This document shows positions 46,640-50,633 of a DNA stretch of 64,000 nucleotides, in pieces. A program made the position numbers and the translations under genes. The notes beneath the pieces were generated by a model. It had not been told where the DNA came from and searched no databases. It saw only the letters and a list, made by a program, of their open reading frames with translations. Every line of letters begins with the position of its first letter. The first letter of the stretch is position 1. Source of the stretch: Mesorhizobium sp. C432A (lineage in GTDB: Bacteria > Pseudomonadota > Alphaproteobacteria > Rhizobiales > Rhizobiaceae); the NCBI RefSeq assembly GCF_030323145.1, contig NZ_CP100470.1, positions 1,612,001-1,676,000 of the forward strand. The letters are read 5' to 3'.

Positions 46640-47008
46640 TCAAAGAGCATGCGGGACGGATGCATTTGCTTTGCCGGGGCGCACACCGTCAGTCCGGCCA
46701 GCATGTTGCTTGCCCCATCTGGCCAGCGGGATCAGGGCATTGTCCAGCTCGATGCCGAATTCGGTAATCGAGTATTCGACCCTCGGCGGCACCTCGGGAA
46801 AGATTTCGCGATGGACGATGCCGTCGGCCTCCATTTCGCGCAGCTGTTGGATCAGCATCTTTTCGCTGATGTCAGGCACCAGCCGCTTCAGCTCACCGAA
46901 TCGTGCCGGCGCCTTGTGAATCTGCCAGAGCAGTAGCGCCTTCCATTTGCCGCTGATGACCTCCAGCGCCGGCCCCAATCCGCAACTATCTGGCTGTTTC
47001 TTTCCCAT
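46640..47008 (-). CDS. HxlR family transcriptional regulator
   Basis: 122 residues. The winged helix reads CGLGPALEVISGKWKALLLWQIHKAPARFGELKRLVPDISEKMLIQQLREMEADGIVHREIFPEVPPRVEYSITEFG, with the conserved first cysteine (Cys9) that senses electrophiles or oxidants in several HxlR members such as HypR and QorR. It is divergent from an SDR gene with a 185-bp gap, so it probably controls the SDR and the following dehydrogenase gene in response to reactive carbonyl or quinone stress. Confidence 0.92.
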   Translation of the reverse strand: MGKKQPDSCGLGPALEVISGKWKALLLWQIHKAPARFGELKRLVPDISEKMLIQQLREMEADGIVHREIFPEVPPRVEYSITEFGIELDNALIPLARWGKQHAGRTDGVRPGKANASVPHAL

Positions 47009-47193
47009 GTTTCATCCAATTCTGAGCAATCGGTGGGTAGCTTACATTTTTGTCGGTACTTGAGAAAAACCAAGCCGGTCCATAGCTTCAAACCAGCTCG
47101 CCGGCATCGGCGAACACCACAACATCATATCGGTACCTCGCTTCGACCTGCAAAGGCCGTCGGCGGCCGGATTTTGTCAAAAAGGGATGGATC

Positions 47194-47958
47194 ATGACAC
47201 GATACGCAAACAAGAAGGCCGTTGTCATCGGCGGGACGCACGGCATGGGGCTCGCCGTTGCCGAAGCCCTGATCGAAAGCGGCGCCGAGGTCCTGGTCAC
47301 CGGCCGCGACCAGCGCAACATCAAGGCCGCGCGAGCCAAGCTGCTTTCGCGAGCTCATGTCGTGCGGTCCGATATCTCAGACATGGCCGATATCGTCACG
47401 CTCGGTGCCGAAGTGGGGCAGAAGCTTGGCCAGATCGACTTCCTTCACGTCAATGCCGGGGTGGCCAATCTCGAACCCGTGGAGCGGGTCACCGAGGACA
47501 GTTACGATCGCACCTTCGACATCAACACCAAAGGCGCTTTCTTCACCGCGCAGCGCCTGCTGCCCCTCATCAGGGATGGTGGCGCCATAGTCTTCACCTC
47601 GTCGATCGCCGACGAATCCGGCACCGGCGGCATGAGCGTCTATTCCGGATCGAAGGCGGCACTGCGCGCCTTCGCCAAGGTCCTGGCCGCCGAGCTTCTG
47701 CCGCGCCGCATCCGCGTGAATGTGGTCAGCCCTGGTTTCATCGATACGCCGACGATGGGTGTGGCCGACGCCTCGGCCGAGGAGCGGGCCGCCTTCATGG
47801 CGATCGGCGACGCGGTCACGCCGATGAAGCGCCACGGCACGATGGAGGAGGTGGCGCGCGCAGTGCTGTTCCTGGCGTTCGACGCGACCTTCACCACGGG
47901 CGCGCGGCTGACCGTGGACGGTGGCCTTGGCCAGGACCTGAGCCCGACACCGGCGTAA
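47194..47958 (+). CDS. SDR family oxidoreductase
   Basis: 254 residues, a classical short-chain dehydrogenase. The nucleotide loop is [21 protein letters not shown] (about residues 11-31), [10 protein letters not shown] the NAG motif, and the catalytic set [37 protein letters not shown] contains Ser, Tyr and Lys (Tyr-x3-Lys). The C-terminus [16 protein letters not shown] and [26 protein letters not shown] is standard. NAD(P)H use and substrate are unknown. GGG-type ribosome site upstream. The next gene lies 28 bp downstream. Confidence 0.93.
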
Positions 47959-47986
47959 CCGCGCAACGAAACCAAGGAGAAGCAGA

Positions 47987-48862
47987 ATGAGCGACATAAC
48001 AGTGATCGGTCTCGGCGCCATGGGCACGGCGCTTGCCGAAGCCTTTCTGAACCAGGGACATGCGGTGACGGTGTGGAACCGTTCTCCGGCAAAGGCTGAG
48101 GCTTTGGCAGCCAAGGGCGCCACTGTGGCCAAGAGTGTCGAGGAAGCCGTCAGATCGAGTCCACTGATCGTGGCGTGCCTGCTTGTCTATGACACCGTTC
48201 GTGAGGTGCTCGGCCCAAGCCGAGACGCGCTGTCGGGCCGCACATTGGTCAATCTCACCAACGGCACGCCCGAGCAGGCGCGGGCGATGTCGGCCTGGGC
48301 GGTGAGCCAGGGCGCCAGCTACATCGACGGCGGCATCATGGCGGTGCCGCCGATGATCGGCGGGCCGCACGCCTTGATTCTCTACAGCGGTTCGCGCCAG
48401 GCGTTCGATGCCTGTTCGGGGCAGCTCGGAGCGCTCGGCACCAGCAAATTCCTCGGTGAGGATGCTTGCCTCGCGCCGCTCTATGATATCTCGCTTCTGA
48501 GCGGCATGTACGGCATGTTCGCGGGCGTTCTGCAGGCGTTGGCATTGACGGGCGCAGCAGGGATCCCGGCCGGCGAGTTCATGCCGCTGCTGGCCTCCTG
48601 GCTTCAGTCGATGCAAGGCCTGCTGCCGAAGTGGGCGGAACAGATCGACAGTGGCGATCACACCAGCAATGTCGTTTCCAACCTGGGCATGCAGGCTGAT
48701 GCCTACGTCAATCTCATCGATGCCAGCAGGTCGGCTGATGTCAGCACCGAACTCGTCTTGCCGATGCAAAGCCTGATGAAGCGCGGGGTGGCTGCCGGCC
48801 AGGCCAATGCCGATCTTACAAGCCTGGTCGCACTGCTCCAGCTCTCGAAACAAGGCGCTTGA
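47987..48862 (+). CDS. 6PGDH-like NAD(P)-binding oxidoreductase (imine reductase-like)
   Basis: 291 residues. The Rossmann loop ITVIGLGAMGTALAEAFLNQGHAVTVWNRSPAKA (residues 4-37) with Arg in NRS fits NADPH. IVACLLVYDTVREVLG, GRTLVNLTNGTPEQARAM, and SYIDGGIMAVPPMIGGPHALILYSGSRQAF are the beta-hydroxyacid dehydrogenase pattern; the variant NLTNGTPEQA and GGIMAVPPMIG is typical of imine reductases. The usual Lys of the hydroxyacid enzymes is not seen, supporting that branch. AAGGAG precedes the start. It is the second gene of the HxlR-controlled pair. Confidence 0.88.
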   Translation: MSDITVIGLGAMGTALAEAFLNQGHAVTVWNRSPAKAEALAAKGATVAKSVEEAVRSSPLIVACLLVYDTVREVLGPSRDALSGRTLVNLTNGTPEQARAMSAWAVSQGASYIDGGIMAVPPMIGGPHALILYSGSRQAFDACSGQLGALGTSKFLGEDACLAPLYDISLLSGMYGMFAGVLQALALTGAAGIPAGEFMPLLASWLQSMQGLLPKWAEQIDSGDHTSNVVSNLGMQADAYVNLIDASRSADVSTELVLPMQSLMKRGVAAGQANADLTSLVALLQLSKQGA

Positions 48863-48935: not shown

Positions 48936-49388
48936 TCAGCTCTTCAGCTTGGCGTTGCAGAGGCTGTAATAGCCGCCGCCCTTCTGGATCCAGCGAAGGC
49001 CGTTCAACGTACCCGCGTCCTTGTTGCCGTGGTAGCCCTGCAGGCAGGTCTTCATACGCGCCTTCGAGGGCTTCTCGGTCTTGAATTCGGCGGCGAGGGT
49101 GGTCGGGAATGTCACGCCCGTCGGCGCTACAGCGGGGGCGACCGCCGCGCTGGTTTCCTTCTGCGACTGCGGCTCGGTTTTGACCGCATCCGCATTGGCA
49201 CTCTCCGCAGCTGACGTCGCGCATTTCTCGGTGCGGAAAGCGGTCCAATCCATGCCGTTCAGAGTGCCGCCTTCCTTGGCTGTGCGATAGGCCTCGCCGC
49301 ATTCCTTCATCGTCAGTGCGCTTGCAGGGGCGACGTTCCACGCAATCCATGCCGTCACAGCCAATGCCGCCAATTTCAATCTGGACAT
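48936..49388 (-). CDS. Secreted two-module cysteine-pair protein (short paralogue)
   Basis: 150 residues. A signal peptide (LKLAALAVTAWIAWNVAPASA) precedes two modules. Module 1, residues 30-56, runs from Cys30 to Cys56 with Y-x-x-AK and TLNG-x-x-W. The C-terminal module, Cys115 to Cys144, contains NKDAGTLNGLRWIQKGGGYY and ends SLCNAKLKS. Between them is a flexible Ala/Thr/Glu-rich stretch. The same two module types occur in the neighbouring longer gene at 49629, whose last 20 residues are nearly identical. The start at 49388 has AGGAGGG 4 bases upstream. I cannot assign a function; the module resembles PsiF-type repeats only in its Cys-Cys helical layout. Confidence 0.85.
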   Translation of the reverse strand: MSRLKLAALAVTAWIAWNVAPASALTMKECGEAYRTAKEGGTLNGMDWTAFRTEKCATSAAESANADAVKTEPQSQKETSAAVAPAVAPTGVTFPTTLAAEFKTEKPSKARMKTCLQGYHGNKDAGTLNGLRWIQKGGGYYSLCNAKLKS

Positions 49389-49567
49389 AAGACCCTCCTG
49401 GTTGACAAAAGTTCGATGTCCTTTTGTATACCATTTGTTCTGCATATGTCCAACTGGAATCTTTGCGAACCACCGATATGTCTGGGGTGGGCAGTGTGGG
49501 CGAATAGATGATGCCGACAGCTTCCGCGATATGGAAACGCGATCAACGCCGGGTGTGTTCGAGCGCA

Positions 49568-49605
49568 ATAAAAAGGCCCGCGCATGCTGCGATGCGCGGG
49601 CCTTT
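49568..49605 (-). terminator. Strong terminator of the long cysteine-repeat gene
   Basis: AAAGGCCCGCGCAT (49572-49585) and ATGCGCGGGCCTTT (49592-49605) make a perfect 14-bp stem with a 6-base loop. On the minus strand it is followed by TTATT. It ends the transcript of the gene at 49629 before the shorter paralogue. Confidence 0.92.
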
Positions 49606-49628
49606 GTCTGGAGAATATGGCTACGCGA

Positions 49629-50633
49629 TCAGCTCTTCAGCTTGGCATTGCAGAGGCTGTAGAAGCCGCCGCCCTTCTGGATCCAGCGCAGGCCATTGAG
49701 CGTGTTGGCGTCCTTGTTGGCATAATACACCTCGAGGCAGGTATGCATGCGGCCCTTGGCCGGCGTCTCGCCGGCGTATTTCTTCGAGATCGCGGCCGGG
49801 AACTTCACGCCCTTGGGAGCGGTGACCGAGGGCTTCTCGGGCTCGCTGGTATAGGTCGCCTCGCTCGGAGCGGGCACGGTGTCGTCGTCATCTGCGCCTG
49901 CGCCGCATTCGGCCTTGCGGAAGTCGTTCCACTTCTTGCCGCCCAGCGTATTGGCAGACTTGGCAGCCTGGTACTTGGCGCTGCAATCGGCCATGCTCAG
50001 GCCCTTGCCGCTGCTGTCGGCAGCTGCCTTGGTGGTTGCCTTGGCGGGTGCTGCCGCGGCCGAGGCCCCGGCGGCGCATTCGGTCTTGCGGAAGTCGTTC
50101 CACTTTGCGCCATTGAGCGTACCGGCGGCCTTTGCCGCCTGGTACTTGGTGCTGCATTCCTTGGCCGTCAGGCCCTTGGCGCCATCGTCGGTTGTGGCTG
50201 CGGCCTTGGTCGTGGCCTTGGCGGGTTCTGCCGCGGCGGATGCGCCGGCGGCGCATTCGGTCTTGCGGAAGTCGTTCCACTTTGCGCCATTGAGCGTACC
50301 GGCGGCCTTGGCAGCCTGGTATTTAGCGCTGCATTCCTTGGCCGTCAGACCCTTGGCGCCGTCATCAGCAGCGGCGGCGGCCTTGGTCGTGTCCGTCTTG
50401 GCCGCAGCGGCCTTCTTGGCCGCCGGCTTTGCGGTCTCGGTGGTGGCCGCCGCGTCGGTGCCGCACTCGGCCTTCCGATACTGATTCCAGGTCTGCCCGT
50501 TCAGCGTGCCGGCGTCCTTGGCGGCATTATACTTGGTACTACACTGGGCCATGGTCAGCGCGCTGGCGGGCGCCGCCATGAACAAGGTTGCGACGGCAAG
50601 ACCCGTCAAAGTTGCAAGTCGGTGGATGAGCAT
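49629..50633 (-). CDS. Secreted multi-repeat cysteine-pair protein (four TLNG/W modules plus terminal module)
   Basis: 334 residues. A signal peptide (residues 1-25, ending AAPASA) is followed by four copies of a 27-residue module bounded by cysteines: 31-57, 101-127, 160-186 and 217-243. Each has C-S-x-KY-x-AAK-x-x-x-TL-x-G-x-x-W-N-x-(F/Y)-RK-x-EC. Linkers are Ala/Lys/Thr-rich. A fifth, diverged module, Cys299 to Cys328, ends the protein with NTLNGLRWIQKGGGF and SLCNAKLKS. Modules 2 and 3 repeat at a 59-residue (177-bp) period and are almost identical in DNA. Each cysteine pair probably forms a disulfide after export. The neighbouring shorter gene encodes the same module types. Function unknown. 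Confidence 0.88.
   Translation of the reverse strand: MLIHRLATLTGLAVATLFMAAPASALTMAQCSTKYNAAKDAGTLNGQTWNQYRKAECGTDAAATTETAKPAAKKAAAAKTDTTKAAAAADDGAKGLTAKECSAKYQAAKAAGTLNGAKWNDFRKTECAAGASAAAEPAKATTKAAATTDDGAKGLTAKECSTKYQAAKAAGTLNGAKWNDFRKTECAAGASAAAAPAKATTKAAADSSGKGLSMADCSAKYQAAKSANTLGGKKWNDFRKAECGAGADDDDTVPAPSEATYTSEPEKPSVTAPKGVKFPAAISKKYAGETPAKGRMHTCLEVYYANKDANTLNGLRWIQKGGGFYSLCNAKLKS
49980..50333 (-). repeat. Two 177-bp near-identical direct repeats within the gene
   Basis: Codons 101-159 and 160-218 form two units of 177 bp; for example GCGCATTCGGTCTTGCGGAA starts at 50074 and again at 50251. The near identity at DNA level, including silent positions, indicates a recent internal duplication or ongoing homogenisation, and predicts copy-number variation between strains. 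Confidence 0.85.

Follow-up and report, generated by a model that had tools for sequence, protein, structure and literature searches.

Exported two-cysteine hairpin proteins of Mesorhizobium and a short paralogue behind a putative LexA-controlled promoter

Introduction

Two adjacent genes of Mesorhizobium sp. C432A encode proteins that are assembled from a small two-cysteine module and begin with a signal peptide, which raises the question of what these proteins are, how they are controlled and what they might do in the cell envelope. The window analyzed here (the whole stretch of 64,000 nucleotides, to which unprefixed coordinates refer) contains pal, cpoB/ybgF, a tilS-like PP-loop gene, ftsH, a trio of genes, the short gene, the long gene and glmM, in that order. 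The trio (46640-48862, between ftsH and the short gene) comprises genes for an HxlR regulator, an SDR oxidoreductase and a reductive-aminase-like reductase. An earlier description made from the nucleotide sequence alone (the sequence-only reading) placed the long and short genes side by side and gave each a signal peptide, and this is borne out: both open reading frames (ORFs) are present and both signals can be read by eye. Their features are listed below, with c standing for a core module and T for the terminal domain.

49629..50633, minus strand: long gene (ccccT), 334 aa; a signal peptide precedes four core modules and the terminal domain
50559..50633, minus strand: signal peptide of the long protein, aa 1-25, ...APASA/LTMAQC (by eye; residues 1-22 have low pLDDT)
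50463..50543, minus strand: core module 1 of the long protein, C31-C57 (AlphaFold helices 28-41, 49-56)
50253..50333, minus strand: core module 2 of the long protein, C101-C127 (AlphaFold helices 98-111, 119-126)
50076..50156, minus strand: core module 3 of the long protein, C160-C186 (AlphaFold helices 157-170, 178-185)
49905..49985, minus strand: core module 4 of the long protein, C217-C243 (AlphaFold helices 214-226, 235-242)
49632..49835, minus strand: terminal domain of the long protein, 68 aa, C299-C328, WIQKGGGFYSLCNAKLKS (homologous to the core)
49575..49602, minus strand: GC-rich hairpin followed by TTTTT, the likely terminator of the long gene, between the two transcripts (read by eye)
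49425..49453, minus strand: promoter-like TTGGAC - 17 nt - TATACA, overlapping the LexA-like site (by eye)
49437..49451, minus strand: site resembling the LexA box, GGACATATGCAGAAC, which departs from GAAC-N7-GAAC at one position, 63 nt 5′ of the short-gene ATG (upstream alignment, box search)
48936..49388, minus strand: short gene (cT), 150 aa with the start ATG at 49388; a signal peptide precedes one core and the terminal domain
49317..49388, minus strand: signal peptide of the short protein, aa 1-24, ...APASA/LTMKEC (by eye)
49221..49301, minus strand: core module of the short protein, C30-C56 (cysteine pattern, AlphaFold model)
48939..49142, minus strand: terminal domain of the short protein, C115-C144 (cysteine pattern, AlphaFold model)

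A longer frame of 210 aa with a TTG start is also present for the short gene. A scan for such elements returned just a weaker, plus-strand version of the hairpin between the genes (49587-49599); it requires a T at the last -10 position, and the promoter-like TTGGAC/TATACA of the short gene was not returned.

Results and Discussion

Spacing, history and predicted fold of the module

In both window proteins, the two cysteines are offset by 26 in the core modules and by 29 in the terminal domain. The values of 26 and 29 had been noted before as residues between the cysteines, for which the correct figures are 25 and 28; they stand as offsets. The core cysteine pairs and their spacing in the previously proposed motif likewise hold, with its start corrected from C-x4-Y to C-x3-Y, and the special terminal module seen in both proteins is indeed there (cysteine pairs 299-328 and 115-144). 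A looser pattern (two cysteines, offset 24-32, around L-x-G/A-x-x-W) yields solely offsets of 26 and 29 when applied to family ORFs from the retrieved loci, whereas its chance matches in other ORFs have different offsets; the spacing of the module is thus not due to chance. Wider alignments give a core offset of 26 in 20/20 rows and a terminal offset of 29 in 26/29, with 28 in two rows and 30 in one. Among 116 proteins recognized by pattern in 78 loci and the window, the number of cysteines, counted from the first recognized module, is twice that of the recognized modules in 109; the remaining seven have additional cysteines, always in even number, in keeping with a pattern that misses diverged modules.

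Comparison of the core and terminal profiles by hhalign matches 24 columns with a probability of 95 and an E value of 1.9e-8. By this measure, the terminal domain is a homologue of the core, a diverged copy in which the second half has been rebuilt around WIQKGGG-Y/F-YSLCN-x-x-LK. It is a basic hairpin rich in Trp, Tyr and Gly, is more conserved than the core and holds the most invariant columns. 

The proposal that the module forms a helical hairpin agrees with the AlphaFold2 models, in which two-helix hairpins containing one cysteine pair each are predicted on flexible linkers. For the short protein (60 aligned sequences), a helix-turn-helix is obtained for each module (27-40/48-55 and 107-125/140-149), with block pLDDT values that lie at 83-86 for most of the core, drop to 68 where it ends and reach 87-95 in the terminal domain; the linkers are unfolded, and the relative placement of the modules is not given by the model, the pTM of which is just 0.42. 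The model of the long protein contains the core hairpin four times and the terminal hairpin once (mean pLDDT 69, pTM 0.30). Dsb enzymes close pairs of cysteines in the periplasm, and the genome of this strain encodes DsbB. From the conserved, paired cysteines, the export signals and the presence of DsbB, we infer a disulfide in each module, and the modules are very probably exported disulfide hairpins.

The long protein had been portrayed as a string of identical modules, a description that fits cores 2 and 3 (93% DNA identity, 97% protein identity) and fails for the remaining core pairs (61-74% DNA, 58-69% protein identity). Judged from these identities, cores 2 and 3 are a recent duplication, and since the number of cores also differs among related species, the array of modules evidently grows and shrinks. 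Relative to 47 relatives, the pooled pN/pS of the long gene is 0.21 in the cores, 0.38 in the terminal domain, 0.39 in the linkers and 0.28 in the signal peptide, ratios by which the whole gene is under purifying selection, most strongly in the cores. The charge of the long protein is unevenly distributed, with +1.7 to +2.7 in each core, +8 in the terminal domain and -6.2 in linker 4. In one Mesorhizobium tianshanense record (L022:5950-6980), the long gene is split across two frames.

Distribution of the family and searches of known families

The module had been called undescribed, and searches of Pfam and NCBIfam with both window proteins accordingly found nothing above cut-off. In the Pfam scan, the long protein matched no family and the short protein solely DUF4195, below cut-off at E 0.058; 60 aligned members or pieces also gave nothing above cut-off (best E 0.024), and the PDB contained neither a sequence match nor a fold match for the module. 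The domain is nonetheless widespread. With the terminal-domain profile, 41 of the 297 genomes from the order are positive; they belong to ten families and to 14 of 122 genera, so that the family clearly extends outside this strain. Across the phylum, 23 of 299 genomes are positive. A wider terminal profile finds 8 of 385 genomes across the class, including four that come from a single family outside the order (f58), and the core profile finds 7 of 385, all seven of which are also positive for the terminal domain. We therefore appear to be dealing with a widespread protein domain that lacks a description in Pfam and NCBIfam as searched.

Relatives of the long protein are encoded in 173 stretches of the genome collection; the best 80, which represent 79 distinct loci, come from Mesorhizobium, Phyllobacterium, Pseudaminobacter, Taklimakanibacter, Brucella/Ochrobactrum, Falsochrobactrum and records without a genus name. 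The 116 proteins comprise 52 of architecture cccT, 40 cT, 12 ccccT, 6 ccT, 3 T, 2 cccccT and 1 cc, by a pattern that fixes the cysteine spacing; the looser pattern gave identical offsets in family ORFs. In many Mesorhizobium, a long form with two to five cores resides beside a short paralogue with one or two, the pair being flanked by ftsH and glmM and close to pal and cpoB/ybgF. Among the proteins of other families that were inspected, the usual form consists of a signal peptide, one core, an Ala/Pro/Lys linker and the terminal domain. Within the genome of the window strain, no further protein clearly has the module (next match E 0.09).

A PsiF-repeat gene adjoins the single family gene divergently in two genomes of a single family (L127:6213-6635 in G047; G123:C170:67041-67115), which we take to be kin of Bradyrhizobium. 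These are the only two of 16 PsiF-positive genomes that are also listed with the family, and the PsiF assignment in G047 is confirmed by Pfam; in the same L127 locus, a DsbB gene lies near the pair.

A LexA-box-like repeat upstream of the short gene

Alignment of upstream sequences reveals a repeated GAAC 5′ of the short gene. In alphaproteobacteria, the LexA box is given as GTTCN7GTTC and GAACN7GAAC, and the Caulobacter box as GTTCN7GTTC (PMC3091678, PMC12700426). Within 200 nt upstream, an exact GAAC-N7-GAAC is present in 36 of 37 short genes of the Mesorhizobium type, all of which come from related species, and in 0 of 66 long-type genes; one-mismatch sites occur by chance in 4 of the 66. 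Forty upstream sequences were first sorted as short, and four of these have no exact box, namely the window and L021, L077 and L079, of which the latter three belong to other genera, represent the single-gene or the long type, and are excluded from the 37. The exact boxes all reside at -51 to -68. GAAC repeats with spacings of 3-6 or 8-12 are found in 0 of 37 short upstreams, mononucleotide shuffles leave an average of 0.11 of 37 with a box, and there are 23 different spacers among the 37.

The one exception is the window itself, where a single base change turns the left half-site into GGAC (GGACATATGCAGAAC); the second GAAC is intact in 37/37. In the short-gene upstreams, the box overlaps a promoter-like TTGAAC-17-TATACA, which places the second half-site within the promoter spacer. 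Conservation is not confined to the half-sites and extends over the entire promoter region, about -14 to +29 around the box. Directly 5′ of the LexA box, at 49454-49470 in the window and at the equivalent place in short-gene upstreams, there is a further conserved block, AAAGATTC. Outside Mesorhizobium, the exact box was not seen upstream of the family genes looked at. Nine family genes from non-Mesorhizobium records (L101-L105, L107, L108, L110 and L111) have GAAC-N7-GAAT, one mismatch to the LexA box, 130-147 nt upstream.

The same repeat can be followed elsewhere in the genome of the window strain, which has 47 places with GAACN7GAACA, compared with 21 for the reversed control. One of the 47 lies 77 nt upstream of lexA. 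In addition to lexA, we inspected 12 stretches with 14 of the 47 boxes between them, selected by eye and in most cases for an AT-rich spacer. Boxes are found, in either orientation, ahead of ssb, two dinB genes, a yifB/comM gene, a gene for a RecD2-like helicase and an ImuA-like gene, the last of which falls below its NCBIfam cut-off (E 1.9e-14). Five of these stretches have no SOS-type gene; besides the repair genes, the stretches yielded a 28-aa ORF that is conserved, a gene resembling glyoxalase, two proteins with no Pfam family and, in the remainder, nothing clear. Based on its position before lexA and repair genes, GAAC-N7-GAAC is very probably the LexA box of this genome. It follows that the short gene is very probably a member of the LexA regulon in most Mesorhizobium that carry it. 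In the window strain, LexA control is uncertain because of the GGAC change in the left half-site, and the short gene there looks like one placed behind a putative DNA-damage (SOS) switch.

The 28-aa ORF (MSDLVQDVVSLVCMSAFLVSMAVWIGAM) encodes a hydrophobic peptide and has two overlapping LexA boxes directly 5′ (C1:3443345-3443371 of the same genome; L237:1546-1571, L248). Its DNA is conserved in 41/41 genomes of the genus that were searched, and among 20 loci opened, the peptide is present in 14, each with at least one exact box, the other six not matching the pattern. In size and setting it resembles the 29-aa SidA of Caulobacter, and by this analogy it is a candidate SOS division inhibitor.

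Neighborhood and origin of the gene pair

A family gene identified by the gene caller adjoins the glmM cluster in 63 of 83 sources. Among these 63, the gene is flanked on its opposite side by the ftsH cluster in 49 and by a member of the trio in 7. The co-occurrence with a neighbor that the sequence-only reading proposed to check is found with the glmM cluster in these sources; in the other genera looked at, the neighborhood differs from that of Mesorhizobium. For this reason, the gene order is a hint rather than proof of a role in the cell wall or in division. Two records labeled only “Alphaproteobacteria bacterium” and “Hyphomicrobiales bacterium” (L023 and L025) have the long-short pair beside the glmM and ftsH clusters, as in Mesorhizobium.

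In a tree of 61 rows that rests on only 100 columns, a branch (91/80) that recurs in 90% of 200 bootstrap trees separates the 24 short rows from the others. The short rows were recognized by a motif in their terminal domain, and all 24 are either the second gene behind a long gene or the short gene of the window. Where records bear a genus name, the short genes all belong to Mesorhizobium; the scan covers the best 80 of 173 long-protein relatives, and absence of short genes elsewhere is thus not proved. Among 60 long-gene loci with at least 1.5 kb of sequence beyond, a short gene is present in 36 and absent in 24, in none of which was a remnant found, indicating that the short gene is dispensable. 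The short gene is a distinct paralogue whose promoter, in related strains, contains a LexA box of its own. This arrangement, the descent of the terminal domain from a core and the variation in module number between species are the points that the sequence-only reading had missed.

Possible function and alternative explanations

The features described above suggest that DNA damage may change the cell envelope via the short gene. Both proteins would stay in the periplasm, where the terminal domain would bind a component of the wall or the outer envelope. Because it contains the most invariant columns and accompanies the cores, this basic, aromatic hairpin could be the main binding part; the cores would tune valency, adding avidity or a second surface. 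The long form might thereby serve as a constitutive, multivalent linker of the envelope. LexA is cleaved upon DNA damage, and the genes that it represses are then derepressed. Under such conditions the short form would be made, with a terminal domain shared with the long form and few cores, and could compete with or cap the long form, altering assembly of the wall or septum until repair is done. This picture of a constitutive long protein as a multivalent binder in the envelope, with the short form as its SOS-induced, low-core counterpart, is a tentative reading, which may well prove wrong; the multivalent periplasmic binding protein of the sequence-only reading is likewise a suggestion. The genes nearby and the charge of the proteins give a hint of a wall or septum role. 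An extended version, in which the pair makes up an envelope arm of the Mesorhizobium SOS response, with the LexA-controlled few-core paralogue displacing or capping a long protein that ties wall, septum or outer-membrane components together and so delaying constriction from the periplasmic side, is unlikely as a whole. Were it true, it would constitute a new kind of soluble, exported, SOS-induced modulator of division or envelope, working through the reduced valency of a resident protein.

Conceivably, these are instead periplasmic stress or polyanion-binding proteins without a role in division, the SOS copy being one more damage-inducible envelope protein that protects, for example, against DNA-damaging or membrane-active agents. 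This is an appreciable possibility, if short of an even chance: the modules are basic and Lys-rich, and the single-gene form in other families, among those looked at, has neither an exact LexA box nor shared neighbors, which implies that the ancestral function is not tied to SOS. Set against it are the wall and division genes that surround the pair in Mesorhizobium, a weak argument, and the invariant columns of the core and terminal alignments, in which no conserved metal ligands were seen beyond the paired cysteines. Action outside the cell, on plant hosts or competing bacteria, would be another way to account for signal peptides, variation in repeat number and a damage-inducible paralogue, all of which also occur in proteins of secreted antagonism or host-directed function. 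Such a role seems very improbable, as members also occur in records of Pseudaminobacter and Brucella/Ochrobactrum and in a different taxonomic family of the class, and no secretion or lysis gene is present among the window neighbors tested.

Two further alternatives concern the identity of the box and of the module. The GAAC repeat could be a mere part of a conserved sigma-70 promoter and no LexA site, leaving the short gene outside damage control; the first GAAC does overlap the -35-like TTGAAC, the promoter stretch is conserved as a whole among relatives, and the window copy of the box has a mismatch. Sigma-70 needs no fixed sequence in the promoter spacer, yet the second GAAC, which resides there, has been retained throughout and at a spacing of 7 only, and in this genome the repeat is also found ahead of lexA and of repair genes, making the pure promoter explanation improbable. 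The module, for its part, might be a diverged PsiF repeat and the family a PsiF variant, in view of the short Cys-Cys units common to both, with L-x-G-x-x-(R/W)-x-x-F before the second cysteine, and of the adjoining PsiF-repeat genes in G047 and G123. Alignment by hhalign of the core or terminal profile with 16 PsiF repeats gives E values of only 0.4-0.6 and scores of 3.2-4.4, inside the column-shuffle null (mean 3.4, sd 2.6), as against 1.9e-8 for core with terminal domain. PF07769 matches neither window protein and is found in 0 of 21 genomes (that of the window strain and 20 relatives). PsiF kinship is accordingly quite improbable, and the distinction from PsiF drawn in the sequence-only reading stands.

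Comparison with known systems

Several known families and systems resemble parts of what is described here. The PsiF repeat (PF07769) is likewise a small Cys-Cys unit that occurs repeatedly in exported proteins and has L-x-G and an aromatic residue before the second cysteine, but the full-length repeats compared here have a cysteine offset of 21 rather than 26 or 29, and it has neither the conserved W nor a terminal domain. The CHCH/Cmc1 fold (PF08583) also consists of two helices linked by disulfide chemistry, although it does so through twin CX9C motifs and two disulfides, in contrast to the single cysteine pair here; the best match to PF08583 has an E value of 0.063, and the matches, in 7 of 60 members, are not significant.

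At the level of regulation, the direct repeat, its spacing and its overlap with a promoter match what is described for the alphaproteobacterial LexA regulon, whereas the portions of those accounts that we consulted mention no exported repeat protein (PMC3091678, PMC12700426). The short paralogue thus offers a regulatory handle on the family, as a candidate DNA-damage-inducible exported protein. SidA of Caulobacter is an SOS-induced membrane protein of 29 aa that inhibits division (PMC4211646), YneA of Bacillus is an SOS-induced division inhibitor with a transmembrane segment and a wall-binding LysM domain (PMC13396833), and the two illustrate that the septal wall machinery can be a site of action for products of the SOS response (PMC4211646, PMC13396833). 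Like them, the short gene is small and putatively LexA-controlled, and its product, like theirs, would work in or outside the inner membrane. The SidA/YneA type is marked by a membrane segment that reaches FtsW, whereas the short protein, which has a signal peptide and no Pfam match and is known here from sequence alone, contains no further hydrophobic segment past that signal when its translation is judged by eye; an uncleaved signal peptide could still anchor it. SidA and YneA are membrane-anchored, and a soluble periplasmic inhibitor derived from a cut-down repeat protein would have no known precedent.
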